26,136 nt of DNA, from the IMG/VR virus record IMGVR_UViG_3300034683_000164, positions 1 to 26,136 of that record, one strand, 5' to 3'. The stretch is from a virus. How positions within the stretch are numbered: the first letter of the stretch is position 1; every line of letters begins with the position of its first letter. This document shows positions 5,382-25,459 of this stretch, piece after piece. Both the position numbers and the translations under genes were made by a program. Under the pieces are notes generated by a model. That model was not told the origin of the DNA and made no database searches. It saw only the letters and a list, made by a program, of their open reading frames with translations.

Positions 5382-5383
5382 TT

Positions 5384-7635: not shown

Positions 7636-7639
7636 TATT

Positions 7640-7668: not shown

Positions 7669-7687
7669 CCTTTTAGATACACAATTT

Positions 7688-12202: not shown

Positions 12203-12208
12203 CTTCTT

Positions 12209-13567: not shown

Positions 13568-13580
13568 GCTATGCCTCCTT

Positions 13581-14228: not shown

Positions 14229-14240
14229 GCTACCACCACC

Positions 14241-14528: not shown

Positions 14529-14540
14529 ATTATCACTCCT

Positions 14541-14723: not shown

Positions 14724-14740
14724 TTACATCAACCCCTCAC

Positions 14741-14848: not shown

Positions 14849-15749
14849 TGGCCGCACTCCTCTCTTTTAAGCATTGCTTACACATTGTTTTAGATTTATA
14901 AAAATCAAACTCCCGCAATTTCCATTCTCCGCAATAAGGACAATAGCGCCAAGCAGGTTTATAATTGCGCATATGGTATGCGTATAATTCCTTTTCTGCT
15001 GTAATTGCTATTTGCCGATACAGCGTTCTCATTGTTTGGGACATGGTGCTAGGTGTTACTATTTTCCCAAATTTCTCGGCTAATTCCACCGCAATACTAA
15101 TTTGCTTCATCTTATCAATACGCCTAATAAGCAGGTGTCGTTGCCAATCATACATAGGTGTTTTATCAATAATATTGCGTTCAATCCACTCTATCCACAA
15201 TTTACTTTGTTCACTTTGCCGCAAGTCCGAATAAAACTCAATCAGTTTGGATATGTGGAAGGAATTCGTCAAATCCACCAATTCATCCAAATCCAATTCA
15301 GGATATGAAGGAAAGCCAGTATTAGCGTCATTAGTGGGATAGAGTAGGGTGTTAGCCAAGCCCATATCCAGGTTGTGTTGTAATTTCCACTTTTTTAATT
15401 TCCATATATCAGGGTGATTGGGTTGGGATGCAATTACATCTGATAACCATTTAATCACTTCCTCATATTGCTGTATGGTTGGGTCGTCTGTATGTATGAT
15501 GGGACGCGGCTTAGTGTATTTTGGTAATTGATTGGTTACATCTTTATGTTGATTTAATTCTTCATTGGTTGCGGGTTGGGTTTTATTTTTTACGTGTTTT
15601 GATGGAGATTTCGGTGTTGATTTATCCATATATAAAATGTAGTTTGCAATTAATTCCAATTCTTTTTCATTGTATTGGTTTAACGGTAGGGAGTGGGCAT
15701 AATCTATGCGTTGTTGTAAATCCAGGTTGTAGTCTAAATTTATATGCAT
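14832..15749 (-). CDS. First gene of the late cassette; C-terminal zinc-ribbon protein of unknown function
   Basis: A 305-residue, mainly helical and charged protein. The start is the ATG that follows GGAGGGAAGGC, not the in-frame ATG 24 codons upstream, which overlaps the promoter. Near the end is a C4 finger: RYCPYCGEWKLREFDFYKSK followed by CKQC (Cys270, Cys273, Cys290, Cys293). The same C-x2-C ... DF ... C-x2-C layout occurs at the N-terminus of the putative small terminase, which suggests a shared nucleic-acid-binding module. It is the first gene after the late promoter and could be a late regulator or a DNA-packaging helper. No family recognised. Confidence 0.6.
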   Translation of the reverse strand: MHINLDYNLDLQQRIDYAHSLPLNQYNEKELELIANYILYMDKSTPKSPSKHVKNKTQPATNEELNQHKDVTNQLPKYTKPRPIIHTDDPTIQQYEEVIKWLSDVIASQPNHPDIWKLKKWKLQHNLDMGLANTLLYPTNDANTGFPSYPELDLDELVDLTNSFHISKLIEFYSDLRQSEQSKLWIEWIERNIIDKTPMYDWQRHLLIRRIDKMKQISIAVELAEKFGKIVTPSTMSQTMRTLYRQIAITAEKELYAYHMRNYKPAWRYCPYCGEWKLREFDFYKSKTMCKQCLKERSAANGESE

Positions 15750-15792
15750 GCCTTCCCTCCTTTGTGAATTGGGTATATTTCCCACTAATTTA

Positions 15793-15821
15793 ATTATAAC
15801 ACATTCTGCGAAAAAAGTCAA
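15793..15821 (-). promoter_or_regulatory. Promoter of the leftward late operon
   Basis: Minus strand TTGACT, 17-nt spacer, TATAAT, 45 nt before the start of the zinc-ribbon gene. Only one base departs from consensus. The window's structural genes lie downstream of it. Confidence 0.8.
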
Positions 15822-16287: not shown

Positions 16288-16779
16288 ATGAAAACACTAC
16301 AAAACACACCAAAAAAAGTAAGAGAACACTTGTTCGAGGAAATTGCAAACGGTACAATAATACCTACACCTGGTCAAGAGTGGGAACTCTTCATCACTAG
16401 ATACTATAATGCAAGCCGATATTATGCAACTGCACCGGCAAGCATGAGTGGGGACATGGTCGCAACTGGTATCCATTACCAAATCAAGTCGGCCAACGGC
16501 TTTTGGGAAGGTATCACTAACTTAAGCGAATTCACAGACTATATTGAAAACACTTGCAAGGCAAGCAGATATATTCTAAAAGTCGGCACAAATAGCAAGA
16601 TAACCGGCAAGGTCTGGTGGTTAGATGTAGACAAGCAAGAATTGATTGCACTAGCACAAGCCGGACATATCAAGTTTAACCGTAAAGCACACGGCAAGCC
16701 AGCCGCCAAATGGTCCATGACCTACAAAGAAGCTTTACACTTAAATATGAAAATGGGAATAAGCCCAGTAAAATACTAG
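16288..16779 (+). CDS. Early protein of unknown function, paralogue of the gene at 17540
   Basis: A 163-residue soluble protein after an AAAGGGG ribosome site. It is clearly homologous to the protein encoded at 17540: both share SGD-x2-A-x-GI-x-YQ-K, GFWE, EFTD-I, SRYILKV/DRYLLKV, LIxLA-AG-I-F, HGKPAAKWSMT/FGKPCARWSMT and KEA-HL-MK. The most conserved positions (Trp in GFWE, Gly-Lys-Pro, Arg/Lys-Trp-Ser-Met) could form a binding pocket. I do not recognise the family. Codons are noticeably richer in G/C than in the paralogue, so the two have different histories. First gene of the early region, with its own promoter. Confidence 0.75.
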   Translation: MKTLQNTPKKVREHLFEEIANGTIIPTPGQEWELFITRYYNASRYYATAPASMSGDMVATGIHYQIKSANGFWEGITNLSEFTDYIENTCKASRYILKVGTNSKITGKVWWLDVDKQELIALAQAGHIKFNRKAHGKPAAKWSMTYKEALHLNMKMGISPVKY

Positions 16780-16786
16780 AACAGAT

Positions 16787-16811
16787 GTACGGGAGGGGTC
16801 GAGCCTCTCCC
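16787..16811 (+). other. Intercistronic hairpin
   Basis: GGGAGGGG and CCTCTCCC pair (8 bp, one G-U) around a short loop between the first two early genes. There is no T-tract, so it is more likely a processing, stabilising or attenuating stem than a terminator. The two genes can be on one message. Confidence 0.5.
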
Positions 16812-16841
16812 ATACCCTATCAACAGAGAGGAGCGAGGTCA

Positions 16842-17003
16842 ATGAATATGTACCTAACAGCTGGAGAACTTAGAGAGATGCTAGAGAGATACGACGACGA
16901 CGCAGAAGTATATGTGTCAGTAGTCGGCACCTTCACAGGCTACAAGGTCCTAACAGTAGCTGGAGAGTATGAGGACGAGGTAGTCATAGAGGTAGTACCA
17001 TAG
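16842..17003 (+). CDS. 53-residue acidic early protein
   Basis: Starts MNMYLTAGELRE after AGAGAGGAGCGAGGTC and ends DEVVIEVVP. A longer in-frame start far upstream would overlap the preceding gene and has no ribosome site, so the short form is chosen. The middle YDDDAEVYVSV and the end EVVIEV are beta-strand-like. The layout (LT-x-EL-x2-ML...D-AEV-V) is that of small phage proteins of unknown role that recur next to regulatory genes in Gram-positive phages. It is co-transcribed with the gene before it. Confidence 0.65.
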   Translation: MNMYLTAGELREMLERYDDDAEVYVSVVGTFTGYKVLTVAGEYEDEVVIEVVP

Positions 17004-17026
17004 GAGCCAGGCCACTGGCTCTTCTT
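17004..17026 (+). terminator. Terminator of the first early unit
   Basis: Seven perfect pairs (GAGCCAG / CTGGCTC, loop GCCA) followed by TTCTTC. It starts right after the stop codon. The T-tract is weak. Confidence 0.6.
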
Positions 17027-17074
17027 CATGCCTGTGTGCTTTAGCACACTACAGTGCTACAGTGGCAGGATCCT

Positions 17075-17098
17075 CGGCAAGTTATCAGACTATTCTGA
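17075..17098 (+). repeat. GGCAA/TCAGA dyad element
   Basis: CGGCAAGTTATCAGACTATT followed by CTGA. The inner TCAGA and TCTGA are inverted around CTAT. First copy of the family from the left. Confidence 0.8.
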
Positions 17099-17171
17099 TT
17101 TCTTGTGGGGTTACCCACAATAAAAGAAACAACAACGGTGCCGGGTGTGTCCTACAGCTGCACCCTAGAAA

Positions 17172-17194
17172 TAACAAAGGCACTTTCGTAGTCG
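17172..17194 (+). promoter_or_regulatory. Bipartite motif TAACA-N12-TAGTCG, copy 1
   Basis: Spacer AAGGCACTTTCG. It is followed by AC, making a GTCGAC palindrome. Confidence 0.65.
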
Positions 17195-17261
17195 ACCGCA
17201 TTACAGCTGCACCGCGCTACAGTGATAAAGCATAATAAGTAGTCGGTGCAGATCACAGCTG

Positions 17262-17293
17262 CTTTCATACACTAAAGTGGTAGTGTATGAAAG
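17262..17293. repeat. Perfect 13-bp inverted repeat around AAGTGG
   Basis: Arms CTTTCATACACTA and TAGTGTATGAAAG, loop AAGTGG. It contains ACACTAAAGTGG, the core repeated before other early genes, but only here has the stem grown to 13 bp. It could be a strong operator or a transcribed stem. Confidence 0.85.
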
Positions 17294-17319
17294 TGGATAT
17301 ACTTCTTAATATAATTCCA

Positions 17320-17455
17320 TAGGAAAACGCTTTCCTAGATTAAGTAGTTGGTACAGCTGCGGGAAAACGCTTTCCTATGGAATTAAGATAAAAACAGGAC
17401 AGGAAAACGTTTGCATAAATAAACAGAAAATTTGTGGGAGGAAAACGATTTCCTA
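17320..17455. promoter_or_regulatory. Four-site array of cre/LacI-like palindromes
   Basis: Cores at 17322 (GGAAAACGCTTTCC), 17362 (same), 17402 (GGAAAACGTTTGCA) and 17440 (GGAAAACGATTTCC). Starts are spaced 40, 40 and 38 bp and the next promoter's -35 lies 38 bp after the last. The sites match 12 of 14 positions of the classical cre form TGAAAACGCTTTCA. The first two are also the inner ends of a longer inverted repeat (ATTCCATAGG... / ...CCTATGGAAT). Confidence 0.75.
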
Positions 17456-17477
17456 GAAAAAAACTTTCAATATAGGG

Positions 17478-17506
17478 TTGACAGATGCTTTTGTTCATGG
17501 TATAAT
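17478..17506 (+). promoter_or_regulatory. Promoter of gene 17540
   Basis: TTGACA, 17-nt spacer, TATAAT: perfect consensus, directly after the cre-like array. Confidence 0.85.
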
Positions 17507-17539
17507 TAATTATAAGATAAAAGAAAGGGGAAATAAAAA

Positions 17540-18004
17540 ATGTTAAAAAATCAATTTCAATTTGTCGAAAAACTTACCGCTCCAAAAAAATTAAACAAAG
17601 GTGAAAAATTTGAATTAGAAATGGGTTTCCACTTCAACGCTGAGGGATACCACCCAGTCGCACCTGCTACTGAATCAGGTGACTTGACCGCCAATGGAAT
17701 TGAATATCAATGTAAAGCCGATAGAGGTTTCTGGGAAGATGTCAGAAATATTGCCGAATTTACAGACTTTATCCTCAATTCTGATAAAGCCGACAGATAT
17801 TTACTAAAAGTATCCACTTCCAAAAGTTGGGCACTAAATGTAAATAAAATTGAGCTTATAAGACTAGCAGCGGCGGGATATATCAGATTTGACCAACCCG
17901 CTTTTGGCAAACCTTGTGCCAGATGGTCAATGACAATAAAAGAAGCAATCCACTTAAAAATGAAATTAAATATTGATTACTTTCAATATGAAAGCCTGAT
18001 TTAA
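17540..18004 (+). CDS. Early protein of unknown function, paralogue of the gene at 16288
   Basis: A 154-residue soluble protein. Conserved with its paralogue over almost the full length (SGDLTANGIEYQCKADRGFW against SGDMVATGIHYQIKSANGFW; FGKPCARWSMTIKEAIHLKM against HGKPAAKWSMTYKEALHLNM). The N-terminal 25 residues differ. It is the only early gene with an array of four cre-like palindromes upstream, so it may respond to a LacI-family regulator. The ribosome site is AAAGGGG, and the stop codon lies in the loop of its terminator. The protein family is not recognised. A conserved Trp-Ser-Met and Gly-Lys-Pro suggest a specific ligand or partner. Confidence 0.8.
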   Translation: MLKNQFQFVEKLTAPKKLNKGEKFELEMGFHFNAEGYHPVAPATESGDLTANGIEYQCKADRGFWEDVRNIAEFTDFILNSDKADRYLLKVSTSKSWALNVNKIELIRLAAAGYIRFDQPAFGKPCARWSMTIKEAIHLKMKLNIDYFQYESLI

Positions 18005-18021
18005 TTCAGGCTTTATTTTTT
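17991..18021 (+). terminator. Terminator containing the stop codon of gene 17540
   Basis: AAAGCCTGA / TCAGGCTTT, nine perfect pairs, loop holds the TAA stop, followed by ATTTTTT. Confidence 0.9.
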
Positions 18022-18110
18022 AATTTTAGACTTTAGTACTGTAATTCGAAAAAGTAAAATTGATCCAATTTTTAATTATCAGAATATTCTGTTTTCTTGC
18101 CGAATCTTTA

Positions 18111-18145
18111 TCGGCAAGTTGTCAGATAATTCTAACTCTTTGCCG
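18111..18145. repeat. GGCAA/TCAGA dyad with both outer arms
   Basis: Begins CGGCAAGTTGTCAGATAATT and ends CTTTGCCG, so outer arms (CGGCAA / TTGCCG) enclose an inner TCAGA...TTCTA. A second, inverted copy lies at about 18072-18102 (ATTATCAGAATATTCTG then CTTGCCG). Confidence 0.8.
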
Positions 18146-18207
18146 TATTAGATACAAAAACAAAACTGTATTGCGGTGAAGCGTTAATACACTAAAGTAG
18201 TAGTATA

Positions 18208-18230
18208 TAACAATGGCGTTTCCATAGTCG
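18208..18230 (+). promoter_or_regulatory. Bipartite motif TAACA-N12-TAGTCG, copy 2
   Basis: Spacer ATGGCGTTTCCA, preceded by TATA. 20 bp upstream of the -35 of the next promoter. Confidence 0.7.
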
Positions 18231-18250
18231 ACATTAAATAAAATAAATGG

Positions 18251-18279
18251 TTGACAGATTAGGGGAATTATGTTATAAT
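18251..18279 (+). promoter_or_regulatory. Promoter of gene 18336
   Basis: TTGACA, 17-nt spacer, TATAAT. The TG just before the -10 gives an extended form (TGTTATAAT), shared by most promoters to the right. Confidence 0.85.
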
Positions 18280-18335
18280 TAAGTATAAACAAAATTAAAA
18301 AAAGAAATTCAAAATTTGAAAGGGGAAATTAAAAA

Positions 18336-18548
18336 ATGAAAATTAATTCAACTAAGTTTGAGGAATTTATAGGTTTGATTTGGATATTGATAATATTCTC
18401 ACCTATATTCGGGATTGAGTATTTTAAATTTACACCTTATCAAGCGATAGGATTAACTTTACTTAATATGGTAGTTTTGGGATTTATAGGGATATTCTTT
18501 GCAAGTATATATTATACAGTGAAAGAGGAGGCTGAAAAAAATGTTTAA
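18336..18548 (+). CDS. Small membrane protein with two helices
   Basis: A 70-residue protein with two hydrophobic segments (about residues 11-27 and 37-61), a short polar N-terminus and a charged C-terminus (KEEAEKNV). Both ends would face the same side of the membrane. There is no cleavable signal peptide. Preceded by AAAGGGG. Early two-helix proteins of this size in phages often act on the host membrane (superinfection exclusion, holin-like or inhibition of host envelope enzymes), but nothing in the sequence distinguishes these. The end overlaps the start of the broken gene that follows. Confidence 0.7.
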   Translation: MKINSTKFEEFIGLIWILIIFSPIFGIEYFKFTPYQAIGLTLLNMVVLGFIGIFFASIYYTVKEEAEKNV

Positions 18549-18681
18549 GTACAAAGTTATGTAGTATCTTTATAAATTTCATTTAATCAGTGAAGAAAGA
18601 TACATTAAATATAGTCTTAAATTGACATTTAAGATTATAGAAGAACACAAAGAAGTATTTATCAGGCTTAAGAATCTTTAA
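18541..18681 (+). pseudogene. Small ORF interrupted by an in-frame amber codon
   Basis: An ATG with a strong AGGAGG site eight bases upstream opens inside the last codons of the preceding gene, reads MFKYKVM, meets TAG at codon 8 (18562-18564), and then stays open for 38 more codons (YLYKFHLISEERYIKYSLKL and onward to IRLKNL) until a TAA that lies in a terminator stem. Start signal, coupling to the upstream gene and the stop-in-terminator arrangement are those of the intact genes here, so this looks like a real ~46-residue gene with a single nonsense change (CAG to TAG would be enough). No alternative ATG/GTG follows the amber. Neighbouring genes use TAG as a true stop, which argues against recoding. 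Confidence 0.65.
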
Positions 18682-18690
18682 GCCTGATTT
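18661..18690 (+). terminator. Hairpin at the end of the two-gene unit
   Basis: ATCAGGCTTAA / TTAAGCCTGAT, eleven perfect pairs, six-base loop, contains the stop of the broken ORF. Only TT follows, so release may depend on the stem strength. Confidence 0.65.
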
Positions 18691-18697
18691 GCAGCTG

Positions 18698-18717
18698 CGG
18701 CAAATTGTCAGAATATT
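18698..18717 (+). repeat. GGCAA/TCAGA element, half form
   Basis: CGGCAAATTGTCAGAATATT, preceded by CAGCTG. It stands 20 bp upstream of the promoter. The bipartite motif is absent from this gap. Confidence 0.75.
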
Positions 18718-18736
18718 ACAACTTTTAATTTTAGTG

Positions 18737-18779
18737 TTGACAAATATTTAATATCATGTTATAATTAGGTATAACCTAA
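18737..18779 (+). promoter_or_regulatory. Promoter of the HAD gene with palindrome at the start site
   Basis: TTGACA, 17-nt spacer, TATAAT, then TTAGGT-ATA-ACCTAA (18765-18779) whose centre falls at the predicted transcription start. About 65 bp, including the promoter, are repeated almost exactly before gene 19430. Confidence 0.85.
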
Positions 18780-18798
18780 ATAAAAGGAGTTGGAAAAA

Positions 18799-19257
18799 AT
18801 GACTAAGAAAATTTATTTTGACATGGATGGCACAATAGCTGATTTATACGGAGAAAAAAACTGGCTTGATAGATTACTAAATGAAGAGAGAGGATTATTT
18901 GAAAATCTTCAAGTAATGCATGACAGACAGAAATTAACTAGAATAATCACAAGCCTACAAGAATTAGGTTTTGAAATTGGTATTATCACTTGGACACCAA
19001 AAAATGTTACTAAAAAATATATTAAGACAGTAGCTAAAGAAAAAACAAACTGGGTACAAAAAAATTTCCCAATGATAGAAGAAATCCACATTTTAGAATA
19101 TGGCACACCAAAACAAAAGGCACCAATAAAGAAAGCTAAAGAAATGATTTTAGTAGATGATAACGAAGAAGTTTTGAACACTTGGAAAACTCCTATACAA
19201 AGAAAAACAATAAAAGCAGATAATTTCCTTCTTGGCTCGCTTCAATCTTTAATCTAA
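18799..19257 (+). CDS. HAD-family phosphatase (5'-nucleotidase-like)
   Basis: A 152-residue enzyme with the HAD signature: motif I FDMDGTIAD (nucleophile Asp8, acid/base Asp10), motif II TWTPK (Thr64), a lysine-rich motif III region near GTPKQKAPIKK, and motif IV MILVDDNEE (Asp120, Asp121). The short cap after motif I and overall size fit NT5C-type nucleotidases or polynucleotide 3'-phosphatase-like HADs of phages, which act on nucleotides or nucleic acid ends. Start taken at the ATG after AAAGGAGTTGG; a TTG three codons upstream lies inside the ribosome site. The stop codon is inside the terminator stem. Substrate cannot be read from the sequence. Confidence 0.88.
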   Translation: MTKKIYFDMDGTIADLYGEKNWLDRLLNEERGLFENLQVMHDRQKLTRIITSLQELGFEIGIITWTPKNVTKKYIKTVAKEKTNWVQKNFPMIEEIHILEYGTPKQKAPIKKAKEMILVDDNEEVLNTWKTPIQRKTIKADNFLLGSLQSLI

Positions 19258-19274
19258 AGATTGAAGTATTTTTT
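19240..19274 (+). terminator. Terminator overlapping the stop of the HAD gene
   Basis: CTTCAATCTTTA / TAAAGATTGAAG: twelve perfect pairs with only three loop bases, then TATTTTTT. The stop codon is the first bases of the right arm and the left arm codes the last amino acids. Confidence 0.9.
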
Positions 19275-19280
19275 AGGCAG

Positions 19281-19335
19281 GGCAAGTTGTCAGATAATTT
19301 GCCTGGTTGTTCGGCAAGTTGTCAGATAACTTGCC
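19281..19335. repeat. Two GGCAA/TCAGA elements with short outer arms
   Basis: First GGCAAGTTGTCAGATAATTT then GCC; second CGGCAAGTTGTCAGATAACT then TGCC, a perfect 8-bp inverted repeat GGCAAGTT/AACTTGCC around GTCAGAT. Here the right half is compressed compared with the 34-bp form. Confidence 0.8.
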
Positions 19336-19367
19336 CAGACGGACCGAAATAAATTTTAATTTTAGTG

Positions 19368-19410
19368 TTGACAAATATTTAATATCATGTTATAATTAGG
19401 TATAACCTAA
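19368..19410 (+). promoter_or_regulatory. Promoter of genes 19430-19567 with start-site palindrome
   Basis: TTGACA, 17-nt spacer, TATAAT, palindrome TTAGGT-ATA-ACCTAA at 19396-19410. Near-identical copy of the promoter before the HAD gene. Confidence 0.85.
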
Positions 19411-19429
19411 ATTAAAGGAGTGGGGAAAA

Positions 19430-19564
19430 ATGACAATTAAAGAATTGGTAAGAAATCATCTGGAAGTTAAAAAAAGTTTATTCGGTGGAAGTCAATTAAT
19501 ATTCAAAAGTAAATTTTATGGATACGATATTAAATACTTACATATTAAAGAAAGGAGTGAATAA
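19430..19564 (+). CDS. 44-residue basic early protein
   Basis: Reads MTIKELVRNHLEVKKSLFGG at the start and ends YLHIKERSE. An AAAGGAGTGGGG site lies before its ATG, at the same distance from the promoter as in the neighbours. The ribosome site of the next gene (AAAGGAGTGA) lies within its last codons, two bases before the stop, so the two are coupled. Lys/Arg-rich, no membrane segment. Function unknown. Confidence 0.6.
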   Translation: MTIKELVRNHLEVKKSLFGGSQLIFKSKFYGYDIKYLHIKERSE

Positions 19565-19566
19565 TA

Positions 19567-19926
19567 ATGAACTGGAAACTAGCTGATTTTGATGAAAGGA
19601 CCCGAAAGCATTTCAAAGAAAAAACTAACTACAATGAACAAGTACATTGCATTACAGCACTTGAATCCCAACAGACTGGAACTGTCTACACCTATCGCCT
19701 TAAAATTATTGCCCTTGTTGCTGGTTTACTTCTTCTTCCCTTTTTGTGGATTTTGGATGTTTTAAAGGCGACCTATCAAGGGATTAAGGCTTTTGGTTCA
19801 GCTTTTATGAATAGCCTCCCTGGTTATCTTTTTCCTAAGCCTGAAACCTTTTTTGTAGAAAATGAGGAAACAGAGAGGAAAAAAGAGGAAATGCGTGAAG
19901 AGGCAAGAAAACGTTTTTCGAGGTAG
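19567..19926 (+). CDS. Early membrane-anchored protein
   Basis: A 119-residue protein with one strong hydrophobic segment (residues 46-66, IIALVAGLLLLPFLWILDVL), a second amphipathic stretch after it (GIKAFGSAFMNSL), a charged soluble N-terminus and a highly charged helical C-terminus (ETERKKEEMREEARKRFSR). Codons such as CTT/CTG-CCT and a lower A content differ from the very A-rich neighbours, which hints at a separate origin. The second gene of a two-gene unit. Possible host-membrane or exclusion function, not shown by sequence. Confidence 0.7.
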   Translation: MNWKLADFDERTRKHFKEKTNYNEQVHCITALESQQTGTVYTYRLKIIALVAGLLLLPFLWILDVLKATYQGIKAFGSAFMNSLPGYLFPKPETFFVENEETERKKEEMREEARKRFSR

Positions 19927-19948
19927 TGTAAACTGCCTCTTTTCTCTT
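19920..19948 (+). terminator. Terminator overlapping the stop of gene 19567
   Basis: GAGGTAGT / ACTGCCTC, eight pairs with one T-G wobble, loop GTAA, followed by TTTTCTCTTCT. The TAG stop is within the left arm. Confidence 0.75.
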
Positions 19949-19951
19949 CTC

Positions 19952-20204
19952 CGGCAAATTGTCAGACTATTCACTCTTCTTCCCGTCCTTTCGGCAAATT
20001 ATCAGAATATTTCCAATTTTTGCCGTCTTCTAAACCCAACACTTTCGCACACTAAAGTGGTACAGCTGCACAGTATTACAGTATTATAACATAGGCAGAA
20101 TCATAGTCGGCAAGATGCCAGAATATTCTGACAATAATAAAAATAAATTTATTTTTCAAAAACCCCTTGACAGAATACCCTAACCCATGTTATAATTAGG
20201 TATA
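19952..20204. repeat. 253-bp duplicated regulatory block, copy A
   Basis: Ungapped near-identity with 21330-21582. Contents in order: two GGCAA/TCAGA elements (19952, 19992), hairpin CACTTTCGCACACTAAAGTG, GGTACAGCTGCAC, a variable 10-mer, TATTATAACA, a second variable 10-mer, CATAGTCGGC, a third dyad with CCAGAATATTCTGACA, an AT-rich stretch, and the promoter up to the start-site region. This fills the gap between genes 19567 and 20229. Confidence 0.92.
20087..20109 (+). promoter_or_regulatory. Bipartite motif TAACA-N12-TAGTCG, copy 3
   Basis: Spacer TAGGCAGAATCA. TAGTCG runs directly into a GGCAAG element. Confidence 0.7.
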
Positions 20205-20210
20205 ACCTAA
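20167..20210 (+). promoter_or_regulatory. Promoter of gene 20229 with start-site palindrome
   Basis: TTGACA, 18-nt spacer, TATAAT, palindrome TTAGGT-ATA-ACCTAA at 20196-20210. Confidence 0.85.
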
Positions 20211-20228
20211 ATTAAAGGAGTGAAAAAA

Positions 20229-20684
20229 ATGAATGATTTGACAAAGTACAAGGTAAAAAATTTTTTAGCGGATATGTTAGGTAAAATAATATTAATACCT
20301 TTTATGCCAGGCAGAATTTTATATGCTAAGAATGAAACTTTTAAAAACTGGATAGATAAAAGAGAACGCCAAGGCTATAAAAAGCGAGCCTACAAAAGAG
20401 AAATAAAAAGAATTGCTTATTATATTAATGAAAATGAAGATAACTCTTGCTCTGTTTTCTTTGGATATGACCATGAGATGGATATCCCTACTGATATCAA
20501 TTTTTCCCCAGACAGTGTGTTATTAGAAGATTTTTTTTGGATAAAGAAAAATAATTTAATAGTGGAAAAGCATACTCTAGAAAGCTATTGTAATACTTAT
20601 TTTGCGGATGAAAAGCTTATCAACAAATATTATACTTTTTCATCTCAAAAAGAAAGAACAGTTTTAATATTGAGAAAGCCTTAG
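20229..20684 (+). CDS. Early basic protein of unknown function
   Basis: A 151-residue protein from the ATG ten bases after AGGAG; a GTG three codons upstream is part of the ribosome-site context and less likely. The N-terminal half is Lys/Arg-rich with a moderately hydrophobic stretch (ADMLGKIILIPFMPGRILYA) that could contact the membrane. The C-terminal half is acidic (GYDHEMDIPTDINFSPDSVL) and contains paired aromatic residues. No catalytic motif recognised. The last codons and stop make the left arm of the terminator. It lies between the two copies of the 253-bp block. Confidence 0.65.
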   Translation: MNDLTKYKVKNFLADMLGKIILIPFMPGRILYAKNETFKNWIDKRERQGYKKRAYKREIKRIAYYINENEDNSCSVFFGYDHEMDIPTDINFSPDSVLLEDFFWIKKNNLIVEKHTLESYCNTYFADEKLINKYYTFSSQKERTVLILRKP

Positions 20685-20701
20685 CATTTGCTAAGGTTTT
20701 T
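20679..20701 (+). terminator. Terminator overlapping the stop of gene 20229
   Basis: CCTTAGC / GCTAAGG, seven pairs, loop ATTT, then five T. The TAG stop is in the left arm. Confidence 0.9.
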
Positions 20702-20704
20702 GTG

Positions 20705-20778
20705 CGGCAAATTGTCAGATAATTCTAATTCTTTGCTGTCTTTTCGGCAAGTTGTCAGACTATTCAAACTCTTTGCCG
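20705..20778. repeat. Two GGCAA/TCAGA dyads in tandem, each with outer arms
   Basis: Both begin CGGCAARTTGTCAGA and close with TTTGCTG or TTTGCCG 34 bp later. Their spacing is 40 bp start to start. Confidence 0.8.
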
Positions 20779-20840
20779 TATTAAATATTAGAATAACAAC
20801 TTTAATGCGTTACCGTGTTACTGTACTAAAGTGTATTATA

Positions 20841-20863
20841 TAACAATGGAGCATTCATAGTCG
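20841..20863 (+). promoter_or_regulatory. Bipartite motif TAACA-N12-TAGTCG, copy 4
   Basis: Spacer ATGGAGCATTCA; preceded by TACTAAAGTG and TATA as in copy 2. 19 bp upstream of the -35. Confidence 0.7.
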
Positions 20864-20882
20864 AGATTTTTTAAAAATAAAT

Positions 20883-20925
20883 TTGACAAATGATTTATTG
20901 TATGTTATAATTAGGTATAACCTAA
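20883..20925 (+). promoter_or_regulatory. Promoter of gene 20944 with start-site palindrome
   Basis: TTGACA, 17-nt spacer, TATAAT, palindrome at 20911-20925. Confidence 0.85.
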
Positions 20926-20943
20926 ATTAAAGGAGTGAAACAA

Positions 20944-21297
20944 ATGTATAAAGAAAAATTAGACAAAATTAAAGGTAAAACAAGCAAATTTTATTATGAT
21001 TATTGTATTGGAGAATTATTTACAGAAGATACTATTGAAAAAATGTTAGCTGAAAGTCAAAATGAATTTATGACTTTTGAGGAAACTGTAGAAGATATTG
21101 AGCCAGTAGAATTGCACCCAGTACCATTTGAAGCAGAAAAAATGCTTCTGTATTATCTTCAAGAAGTTAGAGACGATTTCCCAGTAGCATTTGAACCCAA
21201 AAAAATTGTTAAAAAAATTGATACTAATTTAATGACTGAATTGCAGATGGTATTGGATAAAATTACCAAAACTGGTGTAATTAATTATATTGATTAA
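20944..21297 (+). CDS. Early acidic protein of unknown function
   Basis: A 117-residue soluble protein (starts MYKEKLDKIKGKTSKFYYDY). Mostly helical and acidic in the middle (FEETVEDIEPVELHPVPFEA). A GTG three codons upstream is less likely than the ATG because the AGGAG site is ideally spaced to the latter. It ends TGVINYID with its stop at the base of the terminator. It is followed by the second copy of the 253-bp block. No family, motif or membrane segment recognised. Small acidic early proteins often bind host enzymes, but that is only a possibility. Confidence 0.65.
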   Translation: MYKEKLDKIKGKTSKFYYDYCIGELFTEDTIEKMLAESQNEFMTFEETVEDIEPVELHPVPFEAEKMLLYYLQEVRDDFPVAFEPKKIVKKIDTNLMTELQMVLDKITKTGVINYID

Positions 21298-21326
21298 CTG
21301 GAATTTATTTCCAGTTTTATTTTTTA
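21296..21326 (+). terminator. Terminator after gene 20944
   Basis: AACTGGAA / TTCCAGTT, eight pairs, five-base loop, followed by TTATTTTTT. The stem starts within the stop codon. Confidence 0.9.
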
Positions 21327-21464
21327 GTTCGGCAAATTGTCAGACTATTCACTCTTCTTCCCGTCCTTTCGGCAAATTATCAGAATATTTCCAATTTTTG
21401 CCGTCTTCTAAACCCAACACTTTCGCACACTAAAGTGGTACAGCTGCACCGCACTGCCTTATTA

Positions 21465-21487
21465 TAACACTGCCCACTCCATAGTCG
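21465..21487 (+). promoter_or_regulatory. Bipartite motif TAACA-N12-TAGTCG, copy 5
   Basis: Spacer CTGCCCACTCCA. Confidence 0.7.
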
Positions 21488-21544
21488 GCAAGATGCCAGA
21501 ATATTCTGACAATAATAAAAATAAATTTATTTTTCAAAAACCCC

Positions 21545-21574
21545 TTGACAGAATACCCTAACCCATGTTATAAT
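21545..21574 (+). promoter_or_regulatory. Promoter of the exonuclease gene
   Basis: TTGACA, 18-nt spacer, TATAAT. Only the left half of the start-site palindrome follows. Confidence 0.85.
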
Positions 21575-21610
21575 TAGGTATAGTCAAAAACAGAAAGGGG
21601 AAATTTACCA

Positions 21611-22300
21611 ATGGACAGAAGAAAGAAATATTTTTTACTAATTGATGTAGAAACGGCGGGAGGACTTGACAATCCTCTTGTGTATGACCTGGGCTTTGCA
21701 ATAGTAGACAAGAAAGGGAAAATTTACCAAGCAAGAAGTTTTCTAATATCTCAAATTTTTAACGATAATAAGTTAATGTCAACGGCTTATTATAAGGAAA
21801 AAATTCCATTCTACAAGCAAGAAATGGTAAAAGGTCGCTTCACTCTTACAAGTTGGGAACGAGCAATCAAAGAAATGAACGAGATTGCGGTGCAGTACAG
21901 TGCTAAAGTGGTAGCCGCCTATAATCTGGCATTTGATATGCGAGCTATGACTAACACTAATAAATATCTAGGATACACCGAAAAAATTCTAAGCTACAAA
22001 CTAAAAGGAATTGAAACCTTGTGCCTGTGGGGTCTAGCTTGTGAAACAATATTCTCACAAAAAACTTATGCAAAAGTTGCAGTTGCGAATAAATGGATAA
22101 GCGAGGCCGGAAACATGAGAACAAACGCAGAAGTCGCTTACCGATACATTACAGGTGACACCTCATTTGTAGAACAACACACCGGACTTGCAGATGTTGA
22201 AATCGAGGCAAAAATTATGGCTGACTGTTTTAGACAACATAAAAAAATTTCAAAAGGGATTATCTCTCACCCTTGGAAAATACCAAATAACCGTAGATAA
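21611..22300 (+). CDS. DnaQ-like DEDDh 3'-5' exonuclease
   Basis: A 229-residue protein with all DEDDh signatures: Exo I LLIDVETAGG (Asp12, Glu14), Exo II NLAFDMRA (Asp109), Exo III HTGLADVEIEA (His190, Asp195). It degrades or proofreads nucleic acid 3' ends using two metal ions; no polymerase domain is attached. Length is usual for stand-alone phage exonucleases (180-240). Middle part (YLGYTEKILSYKLKGIETLC) has four cysteines but no clear finger. Start follows AGAAAGGGG. Odd point: its coding sequence contains CAGTACAGTGCTAAAGTGGT, close to the intergenic hairpin core. Likely role: nucleotide salvage or DNA processing early in infection. Confidence 0.9.
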   Translation: MDRRKKYFLLIDVETAGGLDNPLVYDLGFAIVDKKGKIYQARSFLISQIFNDNKLMSTAYYKEKIPFYKQEMVKGRFTLTSWERAIKEMNEIAVQYSAKVVAAYNLAFDMRAMTNTNKYLGYTEKILSYKLKGIETLCLWGLACETIFSQKTYAKVAVANKWISEAGNMRTNAEVAYRYITGDTSFVEQHTGLADVEIEAKIMADCFRQHKKISKGIISHPWKIPNNRR

Positions 22301-22315
22301 TACGGTTATTTTTTT
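22286..22315 (+). terminator. Terminator containing the end of the exonuclease gene
   Basis: AATAACCGTA / TACGGTTATT, ten perfect pairs, loop includes the TAA stop, followed by TTTTT. Confidence 0.92.
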
Positions 22316-22358
22316 ATGTAAAAATGCAGCGAATTATCTGACAATTCGACGAGAACCT

Positions 22359-22378
22359 CGGCAAATTTTCAGAATATT
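22359..22378 (+). repeat. GGCAA/TCAGA element, half form
   Basis: CGGCAAATTTTCAGAATATT; an inverted fragment (ATTATCTGACAATT) lies 30 bp upstream. 19 bp before the next -35. Confidence 0.75.
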
Positions 22379-22396
22379 ACAACATTAATAAAATGA

Positions 22397-22425
22397 TTGA
22401 CTTGTATAAAAAAATATGTTATAAT
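22397..22425 (+). promoter_or_regulatory. Promoter of gene 22454
   Basis: TTGACT, 17-nt spacer, TATAAT. The start-site palindrome is absent. Confidence 0.8.
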
Positions 22426-22453
22426 TAATTATAGAGTAAAAGGAGGTAATGAA

Positions 22454-22636
22454 ATGGCAAAAAAAGTTTATGGACAAAAAAATGTGACCGTTACTCATTT
22501 GCAAGACTATACACAAGAAGAAGCTAAAGCTAAAGGGAAAATTTTTTATACCGCTTGGTCAGAAGTAGAACAAAAAAGAATAGAAAAGAATAGAGAAAAA
22601 TTAAAAAAAGCATTTGACAAAAGACAAAAGAAGTGA
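22454..22636 (+). CDS. 60-residue basic protein, first copy of a duplicated pair
   Basis: Begins MAKKVYGQKNVTVTHLQDYT after a strong AGGAGG site; a longer in-frame start upstream would begin before the promoter's -10 and is rejected. The C-terminal half is a highly basic helix (EQKRIEKNREKLKKAFDKRQ). The protein encoded at 23187 is a close paralogue (same VYGQKNV opening, DYT-E-A-KGKIF, W, final DKR-KK). It may bind nucleic acid. The 3' end also carries the -35 box of the next gene's promoter within the codons for FDKRQKK, and the -10 starts right after the stop. Confidence 0.75.
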   Translation: MAKKVYGQKNVTVTHLQDYTQEEAKAKGKIFYTAWSEVEQKRIEKNREKLKKAFDKRQKK

Positions 22637-22642
22637 TATAAT
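22614..22642 (+). promoter_or_regulatory. Promoter of gene 22674 embedded in the end of gene 22454
   Basis: TTGACA, 17-nt spacer, TATAAT. The -35 and spacer are coding; the TGA stop abuts the -10. Confidence 0.85.
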
Positions 22643-22673
22643 AAGTATATAGAAAAGAAAGGGGAAATGCAAA

Positions 22674-22946
22674 ATGGCAAATCAAAAAGAGAAAAACGCT
22701 TTAAGAGAAAGAACATTGGAGAATATGATGAATTCAACCTTTGAGGGGTTGTCAGTGTTAGGTAGGACAACCGAAGGAGTATTATTACACGAAACAGATG
22801 AAGATTTATTTATCGTTTTAAAAGCAATCGTTAAAAAAGAAGGATTTGACGCTGAAGACGCTTTGGCAGAATTCGTGGAAAAAGAAAAAGCAAGAGAAGA
22901 GAGAGAAAAAGAAAAAGCCAAAAAATTGGCAGAGAAAGGGGAATAA
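22674..22946 (+). CDS. MANQKE-family early protein, copy 1
   Basis: A 90-residue protein with two parts: a small mixed domain (TFEGLSVLGRTTEGVLLHET, then FIVLKAIVKKEGFDAEDALA) and a lysine/glutamate helix at the end (EKEKAREEREKEKAKKLAEK). The paralogues at 23426 and 25142 share MANQKE, the FEG/FEPVG turn, EG-hydrophobic, KPIxKKE-FD-EDAL-EF. The central VLKAIVKKEGFDAEDAL segment is the most conserved and is the probable functional core. Its stop is inside the terminator. No named family recognised. Confidence 0.75.
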   Translation: MANQKEKNALRERTLENMMNSTFEGLSVLGRTTEGVLLHETDEDLFIVLKAIVKKEGFDAEDALAEFVEKEKAREEREKEKAKKLAEKGE

Positions 22947-22962
22947 TCCCCTTTTTCTTTTT
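22935..22962 (+). terminator. Terminator with stop codon in the loop (gene 22674)
   Basis: AAAGGGGA / TCCCCTTT, eight pairs, loop ATAA includes the stop, followed by TTCTTTTTTT. Confidence 0.92.
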
Positions 22963-22972
22963 TTAAAAACAA

Positions 22973-23054
22973 TTCTGAAAACTTGCCGTCTTAATTGTCA
23001 GACTATTTGCCTAGTCTTTTCGGCAAGTTGTCAGATAATTCTGACAAGCTTCCG
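22973..23054. repeat. Cluster of three GGCAA/TCAGA elements
   Basis: An inverted copy (TTCTGAAAACTTGCCG), a partial copy (AATTGTCAGACTATTTGCC), and the most complete dyad in the window at 23021: begins CGGCAAGTTGTCAGATAATT and continues CTGACAAGCTTCCG, with perfect inner arms TTGTCAGA/TCTGACAA. A CTTTCACGCACTAAAGTGG hairpin and GTGCAGCTGCAC follow at 23061-23090. Confidence 0.85.
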
Positions 23055-23124
23055 TCCGGCGCTTTCACGCACTAAAGTGGTGCAGCTGCACAGTGCTAAA
23101 GTAAAATTTATTTTCAAAAAAGGG

Positions 23125-23154
23125 TTGACAGTTTATATAAATCTATGGTATAAT
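23125..23154 (+). promoter_or_regulatory. Promoter of gene 23187
   Basis: TTGACA, 18-nt spacer, TATAAT. The bipartite motif is missing in this gap. Confidence 0.85.
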
Positions 23155-23186
23155 GAATTATAAGATAAAAGAAAGGGGAATGACAA

Positions 23187-23369
23187 ATGCCAAAAAAAGT
23201 TTATGGTCAAAAAAATGTTGTCACTACTAATCTAAAAGATTATACCGAAGAACAAGCAAAGGAAAAAGGAAAAATTTTCCATCAAGCTTGGAAAGATTTT
23301 GAAAAAGAAAGGAAAGAAAAAAATCGAAAAAAAATTCAAAAGGTGCTTGACAAAAGAAATAAAAAGTGA
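23187..23369 (+). CDS. 60-residue basic protein, second copy of the duplicated pair
   Basis: Begins MPKKVYGQKNVVTTNLKDYT after GAAAGGGG. Same length as and closely similar to the product of gene 22454, with a basic C-terminal helix (EKERKEKNRKKIQKVLDKRN). The promoter of the following gene is again built into its last codons. Together with the next gene it is a duplicate of the unit at 22454-22946, so the pair moved or was copied as a block. Function unknown; nucleic-acid binding or inhibition of an acidic host protein are possible. Confidence 0.75.
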   Translation: MPKKVYGQKNVVTTNLKDYTEEQAKEKGKIFHQAWKDFEKERKEKNRKKIQKVLDKRNKK

Positions 23370-23375
23370 TATAAT
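23347..23375 (+). promoter_or_regulatory. Promoter of gene 23426 embedded in the end of gene 23187
   Basis: TTGACA, 17-nt spacer, TATAAT; same arrangement as in the first pair, with spacer bases diverged but spacing kept. Confidence 0.85.
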
Positions 23376-23425
23376 GTAATTAAGATAGAAAGTTAAAAGA
23401 AAACAAATTGAAAGGGGAATGCAAA

Positions 23426-23725
23426 ATGGCTAACCAAAAAGAAATGAGAGAAATGAGAGAGAATGTAATAACTCAACTAGCTGAAACTGTTGAACTTGAG
23501 GGATTTGAGCCAGTCGGTCAAATAGTTGAGGGAATGCTTTACCTCAACACTGCAACCGAAAGCTATCTAGTGCTTAAGCCAATAGCCAAAAAGGAATCCT
23601 TCGACCCTGAGGACGCTCTTCAAGAGTTTGCAGACAAAGAAACTGCAAGACTTGAAAGAGAGCAAGAGAAAGCTAAGAAAAAAGCCGAGAGAGAGGCTAA
23701 GAAAAAAGAGAAGGAAGAGGAGTAA
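23426..23725 (+). CDS. MANQKE-family early protein, copy 2
   Basis: A 99-residue protein. Start at the ATG after AAAGGGGAATGC, giving the same MANQKE opening as its paralogues; an ATG six codons upstream overlaps the ribosome site. The domain core is VLKPIAKKESFDPEDALQEF; the C-terminal ~35 residues are a long charged helix (LEREQEKAKKKAEREAKKKE). Codons are less A/T-biased than in copy 1, nearer to those of copy 3. Its stop is in the terminator loop. Confidence 0.75.
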   Translation: MANQKEMREMRENVITQLAETVELEGFEPVGQIVEGMLYLNTATESYLVLKPIAKKESFDPEDALQEFADKETARLEREQEKAKKKAEREAKKKEKEEE

Positions 23726-23740
23726 TCCTCTTTTTTCTTT
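23715..23740 (+). terminator. Terminator with stop codon in the loop (gene 23426)
   Basis: AAGAGGA / TCCTCTT, seven pairs, loop GTAA contains the stop, then TTTTCTTTT. Confidence 0.92.
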
Positions 23741-23744
23741 TATT

Positions 23745-23830
23745 TAGAATATTCTGACAACTTGCCGCGTTTTTTATTAGAATTGTCAGAAAACTTGCCG
23801 AAAGTCTTTTCGGCAAATTGTCAGAATATT
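23745..23830. repeat. Cluster of three GGCAA/TCAGA elements with a 9-bp hairpin
   Basis: Two inverted copies (AGAATATTCTGACAACTTGC..., AATTGTCAGAAAACTTGCCG) and one direct copy (CGGCAAATTGTCAGAATATT). The second and third meet head to head and make a perfect stem TTGCCGAAA/TTTCGGCAA (23795-23816). Confidence 0.85.
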
Positions 23831-23848
23831 ACAACATTAATAAATTAC

Positions 23849-23891
23849 TTGACAAGTATATTTTTATATGCTATAATTAGATATAACCTAA
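23849..23891 (+). promoter_or_regulatory. Promoter of gene 23911 with start-site palindrome
   Basis: TTGACA, 17-nt spacer, TATAAT, then TTAGAT-ATA-ACCTAA (one mismatch against the other copies). Confidence 0.85.
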
Positions 23892-23910
23892 ATTAAAAGG
23901 AGTTGACAAC

Positions 23911-24243
23911 ATGAACATCAAATTTTTAGAAACAGAATTAATTGACATTAAACATGATAATTGGTTATCTGTCGAAGGGTGTCCAACCTGTGACTATGGG
24001 AAAATGTTTTGTACAGATTTTGACTTTTATTTCTCCAATGGAAAAGTTTTATCTATACAAACAGAATTTTACGATACTATGTCAATAGGTTCAATCATGA
24101 GTTTTTTCGCTAATAGAGTGGAAGAATTCAAAAACTGGGGAATACAAAAATTTAGAATTGAATTAATAAAATTTTTGAAACAAGAGTATAAAGGATATGA
24201 AGATTTTAGAGTTGTTTTTACAATAAAAAATAACAAGGAGTAA
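23911..24243 (+). CDS. Early protein of unknown function
   Basis: A 110-residue soluble protein (starts MNIKFLETELIDIKHDNWLS). It contains CPTCDYGKMFC, three cysteines close together (about residues 28-38) that might hold a metal or form a redox pair, but a fourth ligand is not obvious. The rest is alternating strand/helix with many aromatics (FCTDFDFYFSNGKVLSIQTE). Preceded by AAAAGGAGTTG. It ends with KNNKE and a TAA just before the terminator. No family recognised. Confidence 0.65.
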   Translation: MNIKFLETELIDIKHDNWLSVEGCPTCDYGKMFCTDFDFYFSNGKVLSIQTEFYDTMSIGSIMSFFANRVEEFKNWGIQKFRIELIKFLKQEYKGYEDFRVVFTIKNNKE

Positions 24244-24276
24244 ATAAACTGGAAGAAAATTCCAGTTTATTTTTTT
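24244..24276 (+). terminator. Terminator after gene 23911 (bidirectional)
   Basis: ATAAACTGGAA / TTCCAGTTTAT, eleven perfect pairs, loop GAAAA, followed by TTTTTTT. A matching A-tract on the left side is short, so it could also stop leftward transcripts. Confidence 0.9.
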
Positions 24277-24279
24277 AAA

Positions 24280-24454
24280 CGGCAAATTTTCAGAATACTC
24301 TGAATAATCTTGTTAAAATAATAACATGGGTAAAGAATTTAAAATTTTACTCATGTTTAAAAAATATAAGTAATTGGTACCCATATTTCATGTCCAAATT
24401 GTCAGACTATTCTCACTACTTGCCGGTCTTCTCGGCAAATTTTCAGAATATTGT
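24280..24454. repeat. GGCAA/TCAGA elements flanking a hairpin
   Basis: Elements at 24280 (CGGCAAATTTTCAGAATACT then CTGA), 24394 (CAAATTGTCAGACTATT with TTGCCGG on the right) and 24433 (CGGCAAATTTTCAGAATATT). Between them CATGGGTAAA (24325-24334) and TTTACTCATG (24346-24355) form a 10-bp stem with one G-T pair. Confidence 0.75.
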
Positions 24455-24526
24455 CAAGTTTAACACAATTCAAAATTTTCAGAAAATTGTATTAAATTCC
24501 AAAATTTGGAAAATCCGCACCAAAAC

Positions 24527-24555
24527 ATTATACCACACTTCCTGCCTGCTGTCAA
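24527..24555 (-). promoter_or_regulatory. Leftward (antisense-facing) consensus promoter
   Basis: Minus strand TTGACA, 17-nt spacer, TATAAT, both boxes perfect. It points away from gene 25142 toward the end of gene 23911. No leftward coding sequence longer than ~15 codons follows before the bidirectional terminator, so it would make a ~250-nt non-coding RNA. Confidence 0.75.
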
Positions 24556-24572
24556 CCCCTATGCCCTAATAA

Positions 24573-24595
24573 TAACACAGCAATTTTTGTAGTCG
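24573..24595 (+). promoter_or_regulatory. Bipartite motif TAACA-N12-TAGTCG, copy 6
   Basis: Spacer CAGCAATTTTTG; followed at once by a cre-like half site (GCAAACGTTTTCCTA, 24598-24612) and a GGCAA/TCAGA element at 24613. Confidence 0.65.
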
Positions 24596-24612
24596 AGGCA
24601 AACGTTTTCCTA

Positions 24613-24633
24613 CGGCAAGTTATCAGAAAATTG
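24613..24633 (+). repeat. GGCAA/TCAGA element, half form
   Basis: CGGCAAGTTATCAGAAAATT, fused to the cre-like half site on its left. Confidence 0.75.
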
Positions 24634-24716
24634 CGACTTTTACCAAAAATTGGAAATTAGGAAAAGAAACAGCTGCCAAATTTTACCATTTCTTCCAATT
24701 TTTGACAACCCGCACA

Positions 24717-24739
24717 TAACAGTTACTCCCTGGTAGTCG
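24717..24739 (+). promoter_or_regulatory. Bipartite motif TAACA-N12-TAGTCG, copy 7
   Basis: Spacer GTTACTCCCTGG; right flank AGTGAAATTTTGTAAA is shared with copy 8 at the right end of the window. Confidence 0.65.
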
Positions 24740-24792
24740 AGTGAAATTTTGTAAATATTAATTTTTCTTAATACAATTTACCATAATTTGGG

Positions 24793-24821
24793 TAGACAAA
24801 ACACCTAAATTGTGATATACT
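24793..24821 (+). promoter_or_regulatory. Tandem promoter 1 of gene 25142
   Basis: TAGACA, 17-nt spacer, TATACT. It is followed by TATATATAGAAA and an AAGGAGTGGTG that resembles a ribosome site but leads only to a nine-codon GTG frame. Confidence 0.7.
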
Positions 24822-24905
24822 ATATATATAGAAAGAAATAAAAAAGGAGTGGTGCAGCTGGGAATATTTTCCAATAAATAATTCGCAAATTACACATTAA
24901 AAGCG

Positions 24906-24934
24906 TTGACAAAAGGCACAAATTATGATATACT
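24906..24934 (+). promoter_or_regulatory. Tandem promoter 2 of gene 25142
   Basis: TTGACA, 17-nt spacer, TATACT. About 45 bp around it are almost identical to tandem promoter 3. Confidence 0.8.
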
Positions 24935-24944
24935 ATGTATATAG

Positions 24945-25057
24945 AAAAGAAACAAGAACAGCCTTGAGTTTAGGAGCATGGCTCAATAAAATATCTCTTA
25001 AATACCGTCGGAGGAGCGGTAAAATAAAAATCCTCCAAAAATACTTCAAGAAAAGTC
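24945..25057 (+). ncRNA. Structured leader between tandem promoters 2 and 3
   Basis: It would be the first ~110 nt of the RNA from promoter 2. It can form TTGAG/CTCAA, then TACCG/CGGTA with GGAGGAG in the loop, and alternatively GGAGGA/TCCTCC with the sequence downstream. No open frame uses the exposed GGAGGA. It could be a regulatory leader or small RNA; evidence is fold by eye only. Confidence 0.3.
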
Positions 25058-25086
25058 TTGACAAAAGCCACAAATTATGATATACT
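25058..25086 (+). promoter_or_regulatory. Tandem promoter 3 of gene 25142
   Basis: TTGACA, 17-nt spacer, TATACT, 55 bp before the start codon. Confidence 0.85.
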
Positions 25087-25141
25087 ATGTATATAGAAAA
25101 GAAAAAGAAAGCAAATGGGAAATGGAAGGAGGTATGTGTAA

Positions 25142-25459
25142 ATGGCTAACCAAAAGGAAATGAAAGCTATAAGAGAACAAGCACTTGAGATGTTCCAGAC
25201 TATGGAATTTGAAGGCTTCGAGCTTGTCGGACAGGCTGTTGAAGGTGTGGTAATGAAGCATGTAGAACTTGACGCATTTGTTGTATTCAAGCCAATCGTC
25301 AAGAAAGAAGGCTTCGATGTTGAGGACGCCCTTCAGGAGTTTGAGGACAAAGCAAGAGCCGCAGCTGAGAGAGAAGCGGAGAGACTTGCTAAGGCGGCTG
25401 AGAGAGCGGCTAAGGCAGCTGAGAAAGCAAAAGAGAAAGCAGAAGAAAAGGGCGAGTAG
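25142..25459 (+). CDS. MANQKE-family early protein, copy 3
   Basis: A 105-residue protein with the same layout as its two paralogues: opening MANQKEMKAIREQALEMFQT, core FKPIVKKEGFDVEDALQEFE, and a C-terminal ~40-residue helix that is alanine-rich (ERAAKAAEKAKEKAEEKGE) where copies 1 and 2 are lysine-rich. It has the best ribosome site in the window (AAGGAGGT) and three tandem promoters, so it is probably the most strongly made member. It lacks the 60-aa partner gene that precedes copies 1 and 2. Codons are richer in G/C than elsewhere in the early region. Function unknown. Confidence 0.8.
   Translation: MANQKEMKAIREQALEMFQTMEFEGFELVGQAVEGVVMKHVELDAFVVFKPIVKKEGFDVEDALQEFEDKARAAAEREAERLAKAAERAAKAAEKAKEKAEEKGE

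Follow-up and report, generated by a model that had tools for sequence, protein, structure and literature searches.

A gene-free leftward promoter facing a cluster of CodY-type operators in the early region of a large siphovirus of Firmicutes type

The stretch of DNA analysed here (the window) is a 26.1-kb piece of a large siphovirus genome. Its left arm (25-15821, minus strand) holds the head genes, of which those for capsid and portal have relatives in Enterococcus phages EF1, H1 and VRE9, in Phass-1 and in others (about 110-140 kb), and its right arm (16288-25459, plus strand) consists of small early genes, almost each with its own consensus promoter. One right-arm gene of 229 aa is 47% identical to Enterococcus phage genes, whose block is likewise rightward and adjoins leftward head genes. 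No DNA similarity of the locus to named phages was found, and protein searches with the early genes of the window in viral contigs gave no relatives; the useful relatives were obtained by searching with the repeat motif described below. One of them, L021 (contig IMGVR_UViG_3300009686_000008), has the same layout as the window with early genes carrying their own promoters, and its block closes with a gap followed by three promoters in tandem and by a final gene that is homologous to, and at the same place as, the terminal early gene of the window (38% identity, E 1e-15).

The gap under study lies between gene 23911 (23911-24243, plus strand; 110 aa, phrog_20043, function unknown) and this terminal gene (25142-25459, plus strand; 105 aa, a paralogue of 22674 and 23426), which is preceded by three tandem rightward promoters (24793, 24906 and 25058, together spanning 24793-25086 on the plus strand). 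Such tandem consensus promoter triples are thus seen in two divergent phages (24793-25086 here and 18530-18756 in the reverse complement of L021), where short leaders of about 70-125 nt, some of them with SD-like sites and mini-ORFs, are followed by the gene for a small charged protein. It may be added that the neighbourhood (22454-25459) is built of tandem paralogues, namely a 60-aa family (22454 and 23187) and a family of about 100 aa with a Lys/Glu/Ala-rich tail (22674, 23426 and 25142), neither of which has a Pfam or PHROG match above noise. Elsewhere in the window, a 260-bp intergenic promoter cassette is present in two copies that are 93% identical and stand upstream of different genes (19952-20211 and 21330-21589), and two stretches of the left arm (8773-9312 and 9831-10667) hold ORFs resembling homing endonucleases (HNH and GIY-YIG type, as judged by eye) that apparently interrupt the terminase gene region, which suggests introns.

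On the minus strand of the gap, at 24527-24555, is a consensus promoter of the form TTGACA-17-TATAAT with an extended TGN -10 (TTGACAGCAGGCAGGAAGTGTGGTATAAT; 12 of 12 positions). The window contains 10 exact copies of the extended pattern TTGACA-N14-TGN-TATAAT as against 0.00 expected from 100 dinucleotide shuffles (0.02 if one mismatch is allowed), and on the minus strand of the early arm no promoter other than that at 24555-24527 reaches 12/12. A preliminary description of the locus had already pointed to this promoter and to the lack of any frame above about 15 codons with a ribosome site, and both points are borne out in substance: the longest leftward ORF downstream of the promoter has 23 codons and lacks a Shine-Dalgarno match, as do all others of at least 8 codons, for which reason a hidden leftward gene was rejected. 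Starting 7 nt after the -10, the predicted transcript would run for about 275 nt (24243-24520, minus strand) without being translated, up to a terminator hairpin shared with gene 23911 (24242-24272, flagged on the minus strand). Read from the sequence, this hairpin has U-rich 3′ stem ends on both strands and fits the bidirectional terminator proposed earlier, so that the leftward unit has a promoter and a terminator hairpin of its own and no credible ORF between them. Within the unit lie a palindrome, TTCCAAAATTTGGAA, at 24497-24511 (about +10 to +24) and the inverted repeat that had been placed at about 24325-24355, which is real and has a stem of 12 bp (24323-24334/24346-24357); in sequence and folds this hairpin (24323-24357) is perfect on the plus strand, with a G.U pair, and has one A.C mismatch on the minus strand. 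Upstream of the leftward -35 is a LacI/CcpA-like palindrome, GGCAAACGTTTTCC (24597-24610), one of six copies. Four copies of this LacI-like palindrome (GGAAAACGNTTTCC) occur at intervals of 38-40 bp at 17322-17453, immediately before promoter 17478, and two more are at 24597 and 25479; the CcpA consensus itself is not enriched in the window, where just the LacI-like variant recurs. We also discarded the idea that the leftward promoter belongs to a rightward promoter cassette copied in inverse orientation, as the sequences downstream do not match and operator units are the only shared pieces.

The preliminary description took the leftward unit for a candidate non-coding RNA. That the RNA is a true regulator, which would target RNAs of phage or host or sequester a protein, is in keeping with the perfect promoter, the missing gene, the defined end and the very stable fold of the predicted product (278 nt, -75.9 kcal/mol, z -7.3), but the plus strand of the same DNA is almost as stable (z -6.0), and in a fold scan of the right arm the gaps at about 17180-17540, 17900-18140 and 19220 reach equally low z values on both strands, that is, early gaps fold equally well where there is no leftward promoter. 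Because strong folding is shared by the opposite strand and by other early gaps, the fold was rejected as proof of an ncRNA; the structure derives largely from the palindromic intergenic repeats. No strand-specific conserved structure is seen, given that both strands fold (one hairpin being better paired on the plus strand), that the syntenic gap of L021 has no such promoter and that the predicted RNA matches no Rfam family. In Enterococcus phages an orphan promoter and about 85 nt downstream of it are invariant across six genomes, which is in favour of an RNA product but weak as evidence because these genomes are 96-100% alike at the locus. We consider a regulatory RNA quite improbable. A strongly structured, untranslated leftward RNA of about 275 nt stands as a fair prediction, but nothing singles it out as the functional product, and no positive support was found for its acting in trans on transcripts that share its GGCAA/TCAGA unit.

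The GGCAA/TCAGA unit is a half-site, the whole being a palindrome of 24 bp, AATTGTCAGAATATTCTGACAATT, that is clearest in the relatives L021, L024 and L039. At 22 of 24 positions this palindrome matches the overlapping CodY operator, a 24-nt site made of two copies of AATTTTCWGAAAATT sharing 6 bp (PMC10415144). With up to 2 mismatches, the 15-mer AATTTTCWGAAAATT is found 16 times in the right arm (0.5 expected; 1 for the reversed-pattern control) and 0 times in the left arm. When up to 3 mismatches are allowed, 29 of 29 right-arm boxes are intergenic, as compared with an intergenic share of 46% for the arm, and boxes are essentially absent from the left arm. Among 24-mers, the three best in the window (up to 5 mismatches; 0.00 expected) all fall within 24285-24488, the best one at 24285-24308 (3 mismatches) and the others at 24438-24461 (4 mismatches) and 24465-24488 (5 mismatches), the last of which includes the only perfect 15-bp CodY box of the window (24474-24488, about +33 to +47). 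A weaker operator is present at 24397-24420 (6 mismatches as a 24-mer, 3 as a 15-mer), and a 15-bp box with 2 mismatches lies upstream of the leftward promoter (24618-24632). Since the best 24-mers and the only perfect 15-mer are all inside it, region 24285-24488 is by sequence match the strongest CodY-type operator cluster of the window. Counted from the predicted start, a leftward polymerase would meet the first strong box at about +33, followed by those at about +60, +100 and +213. The locus had been described as containing only inverted repeats and dyad elements with two GGCAA/TCAGA units; these elements are present, but the account was incomplete, as the dyads amount to four CodY-type operators (24285, 24397, 24438 and 24465/24474) rather than two units.

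The boxes are not uniform. Most have G or A at position 5 (AATTGTC, AATTATC) and so depart from the CodY consensus, and many of those in the window are flanked by CGGCAA and consist of a single or half site. In some cases the box precedes the -35 of a rightward promoter (18703, 22364 and 23816) by a fixed 18-19 bp, and this fixed distance suggests promoter regulation. TnrA/GlnR sites have the form TGTNA-N7-TNACA with a 17-bp spacing, to which the inner 18 bp of the palindrome do not conform, and TnrA/GlnR was set aside as the reader. The AT-rich repeats beside a gene-less promoter could also belong to a transcription-primed replication origin with iterons, but the boxes occur in nearly every early gap and not at one locus, and the GC skew of the window turns at about 15-16 kb, where the gene direction changes, with just a local dip at 24-25 kb; an origin here is therefore very improbable.

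In L021 the early block contains 46 boxes as against 0.3 expected, and the gap syntenic to the one studied here has 9 boxes and six 24-mers. No leftward promoter is present in this syntenic gap. A third record, L024 (a contig of 123 kb), has 18 boxes in one 20-kb end, and exact or near-exact 24-mers occur in both L021 and L024. No excess of boxes was found in seven further large Firmicutes phages that served as controls (SPO1, K, A511, 949, Sundance, LIBA6276 and ES-S-0173-01), which have 1-4 per whole genome. The densest array seen is an 801-bp gene-free gap of L021 with 18 CodY-type boxes (7715-8516 of the reverse complement). As L021 keeps the cluster without the leftward promoter, the conserved element, judged by this comparison, is the operator cluster; the promoter is not kept between the relatives, and its own importance is for the same reason uncertain.

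The wider phage group was compared by scanning the whole genomes of H1, EF1 and VRE9_3 (roughly 140 kb each). CodY boxes are few in these, and in their place we found 4-6 exact cre (CcpA) boxes and 5-6 Rex boxes (up to 1 mismatch) per genome, all of them within the early region of about 10 kb or its divergent gap, so that cre and Rex operators are both enriched and local to the early region. In H1 (L009), for example, 5 exact cre and 5 Rex boxes (up to 1 mismatch) all lie in 90,420-100,396 of the 138-kb genome, and the controls gave 0. H1 also has an 817-bp gene-free gap with Rex and cre boxes, in which an orphan leftward promoter sits among Rex boxes; as in the window, the leftward unit runs up to a hairpin of the preceding gene that resembles a bidirectional terminator. 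The early block of Phass-1 has three leftward promoters, two of them in close divergent pairs with rightward ones, and in L010 (Phass-1), at 2969-3060 and 5173-5263, a GC-rich palindrome lies between a rightward and a leftward promoter that are about 35 bp apart and face each other. Leftward promoters without a gene are therefore a recurrent feature of this wider group: in H1, EF1, VRE9 and Phass-1, as in the window, a leftward promoter close to consensus stands in a gap free of genes within the rightward early block. They differ in that the Enterococcus phages carry cre and Rex boxes instead of CodY-type boxes, the Phass-1 promoters form short divergent pairs, and the RNAs have no sequence similarity to that of the window.

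These comparisons bear on two further explanations. The leftward promoter may be a relic of a promoter-gene cassette that was lost or shuffled in a fast-rearranging region, to which the duplication of intergenic cassettes in the window (19952-20211 and 21330-21589) and the absence of the promoter from the L021 gap would correspond; an undecayed, perfect 12/12 extended promoter and the recurrence of orphan leftward promoters in the Enterococcus phages and Phass-1 argue against it, and we hold it to be unlikely. The operators may alternatively be a pure DNA decoy array that titrates a host regulator as the phage genome multiplies, the leftward promoter being incidental. Consistent with this, the non-coding gaps of the early region contain dozens of boxes in three phage records, the boxes are densely clustered in gaps of up to 800 bp that lack genes (such as that of 18 boxes in L021), and the Enterococcus phages have exact cre and Rex boxes instead, whereas the boxes at fixed positions before the -35 of 18703, 22364 and 23816 point to regulation of promoters, and we would give a pure decoy little weight. 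It may be noted that the preliminary description had also offered the RNA as a decoy for the protein binding its unit; a decoy fits better than an RNA product, though at the level of DNA, the unit being a half-site of the CodY-type palindrome.

Which protein reads the palindrome is made less certain by its occurrence in bacteria. Among 84,980 GTDB genomes the exact 24-mer AATTGTCWGAATATTCWGACAATT was found in two, both of Lachnospiraceae and each time beside a CRISPR array. At up to 2 mismatches it lies in the leader of nine arrays from six genomes (L040, L041, L042, L043, L052, L060, L063, L067 and L068, with the site at position 1501 of each); these leaders are partly homologous and hence not nine independent cases. 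In arrays of the GTAGAAATG repeat type, about 55 bp separate the end of the palindrome from the first repeat, and the genes adjoining the CRISPR loci with the palindrome include Cas13a (type VI-A), Cas1 and an RT-primase fusion. CodY is encoded by both of the genomes that have the exact 24-mer, and at up to 3 mismatches from the CodY 24-mer, 4 of 5 sites in one of them and 1 of 1 in the other are CRISPR leaders. From these matches, either CodY may control CRISPR arrays or the palindrome may be read by another protein, and the occurrence in CRISPR leaders is the main reason why our confidence in CodY is limited. A site for a phage-encoded regulator, or for a host protein that binds CRISPR leaders, would account for the exact 24-mer being found in GTDB genomes solely in such leaders, for the variable position 5 and the CGGCAA flank of the window boxes, and for the boxes being few or missing in related phages (Enterococcus phages, Phass-1). 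The match to the CodY operator at 22 of 24 positions and the presence of CodY in both genomes with the exact site are against it, and we see such a reader as possible, if on the unlikely side.

The explanation that we tentatively favour, though with somewhat less than even confidence, is that the gap is an operator island for a host regulator in the early region, into which the leftward promoter fires and at which it is probably roadblocked when the regulator is bound. CodY is a sensor of GTP and branched-chain amino acids. The island belongs to the rightward early region of this Firmicutes-type siphovirus, and its core is the strongest cluster of 24-bp palindromic CodY-type operators in the window, with a promoter of the host sigma-A type at its right end directed leftward into the cluster and a leftward unit that would stop at the hairpin of gene 23911 and yield at most a structured untranslated RNA. 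Host CodY would bind the boxes; as the simplest mechanism, in well-fed cells the bound protein would stop the leftward polymerase, and when CodY is inactive the leftward RNA would be made. The operator DNA may then matter more than the RNA, through local regulation and perhaps through titration of CodY as phage copies multiply. As regards the roadblock, CodY bound downstream of a promoter blocks the elongating polymerase in B. subtilis, according to the work of Belitsky and Sonenshein (2011) as it is cited in PMC4683965. With respect to binding, PMC10976474 shows that boxes predicted in phage DNA for a host regulator may turn out not to be bound when assayed, and warns against relying on such predictions unless binding is tested.

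On a broader scale, the early gaps of large Firmicutes phages may hold tens of operators of global regulators of host metabolism (CodY in the window, CcpA and Rex in the Enterococcus phages) together with gene-less promoters that point into the clusters, by which the phage would read or titrate the nutritional state, and as a CodY-type operator is also found in Lachnospiraceae CRISPR leaders, phage early genes and CRISPR arrays might compete for one regulator; we regard this generalization as doubtful at present. If host regulators do read the arrays, takeover by Firmicutes phages would be coupled to starvation signals, and, for the palindrome common to the CRISPR leaders, a link between nutrition, phage and CRISPR could be tested with one protein and one 24-bp probe. 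The wiring of phages to host nutrient regulators is known from the Pho boxes of cyanophages, but for dense arrays of CodY-, CcpA- or Rex-type operators restricted to early regions we found no report in the open PMC literature.

Among known systems, the PeSLs of T4-type phages are promoter-stem-loop cassettes duplicated in intergenic positions of the variable early region. Duplicated intergenic cassettes of promoter and hairpin in such a region are common to them and the window, but an operator palindrome and a match to a host regulator are not known to form part of their description. With the overlapping CodY operators of Firmicutes (PMC10415144) the window shares a pair of 15-bp motifs overlapping by 6 bp, the AT-rich palindrome TCWGAATATTCWGA and a location in regulatory non-coding DNA; its own operators differ in being predicted, in numbering in the tens within the early region of a phage and in commonly having G/C at positions 5/20. 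The CodY roadblock system, as far as it is outlined in PMC4683965, resembles the window, where boxes follow a strong promoter at about +33 and beyond, and differs from it in that the window has no coding gene downstream and its roadblock is only a predicted one. Lastly, like the cyanophage Pho boxes and host PhoB (PMC10976474), the window presents phage promoters that would be wired to a host nutrient regulator, except that the Pho boxes are few and upstream of named genes, whereas the boxes of the window number in the tens, lie in gaps and gene-free clusters and would answer to a different regulator.
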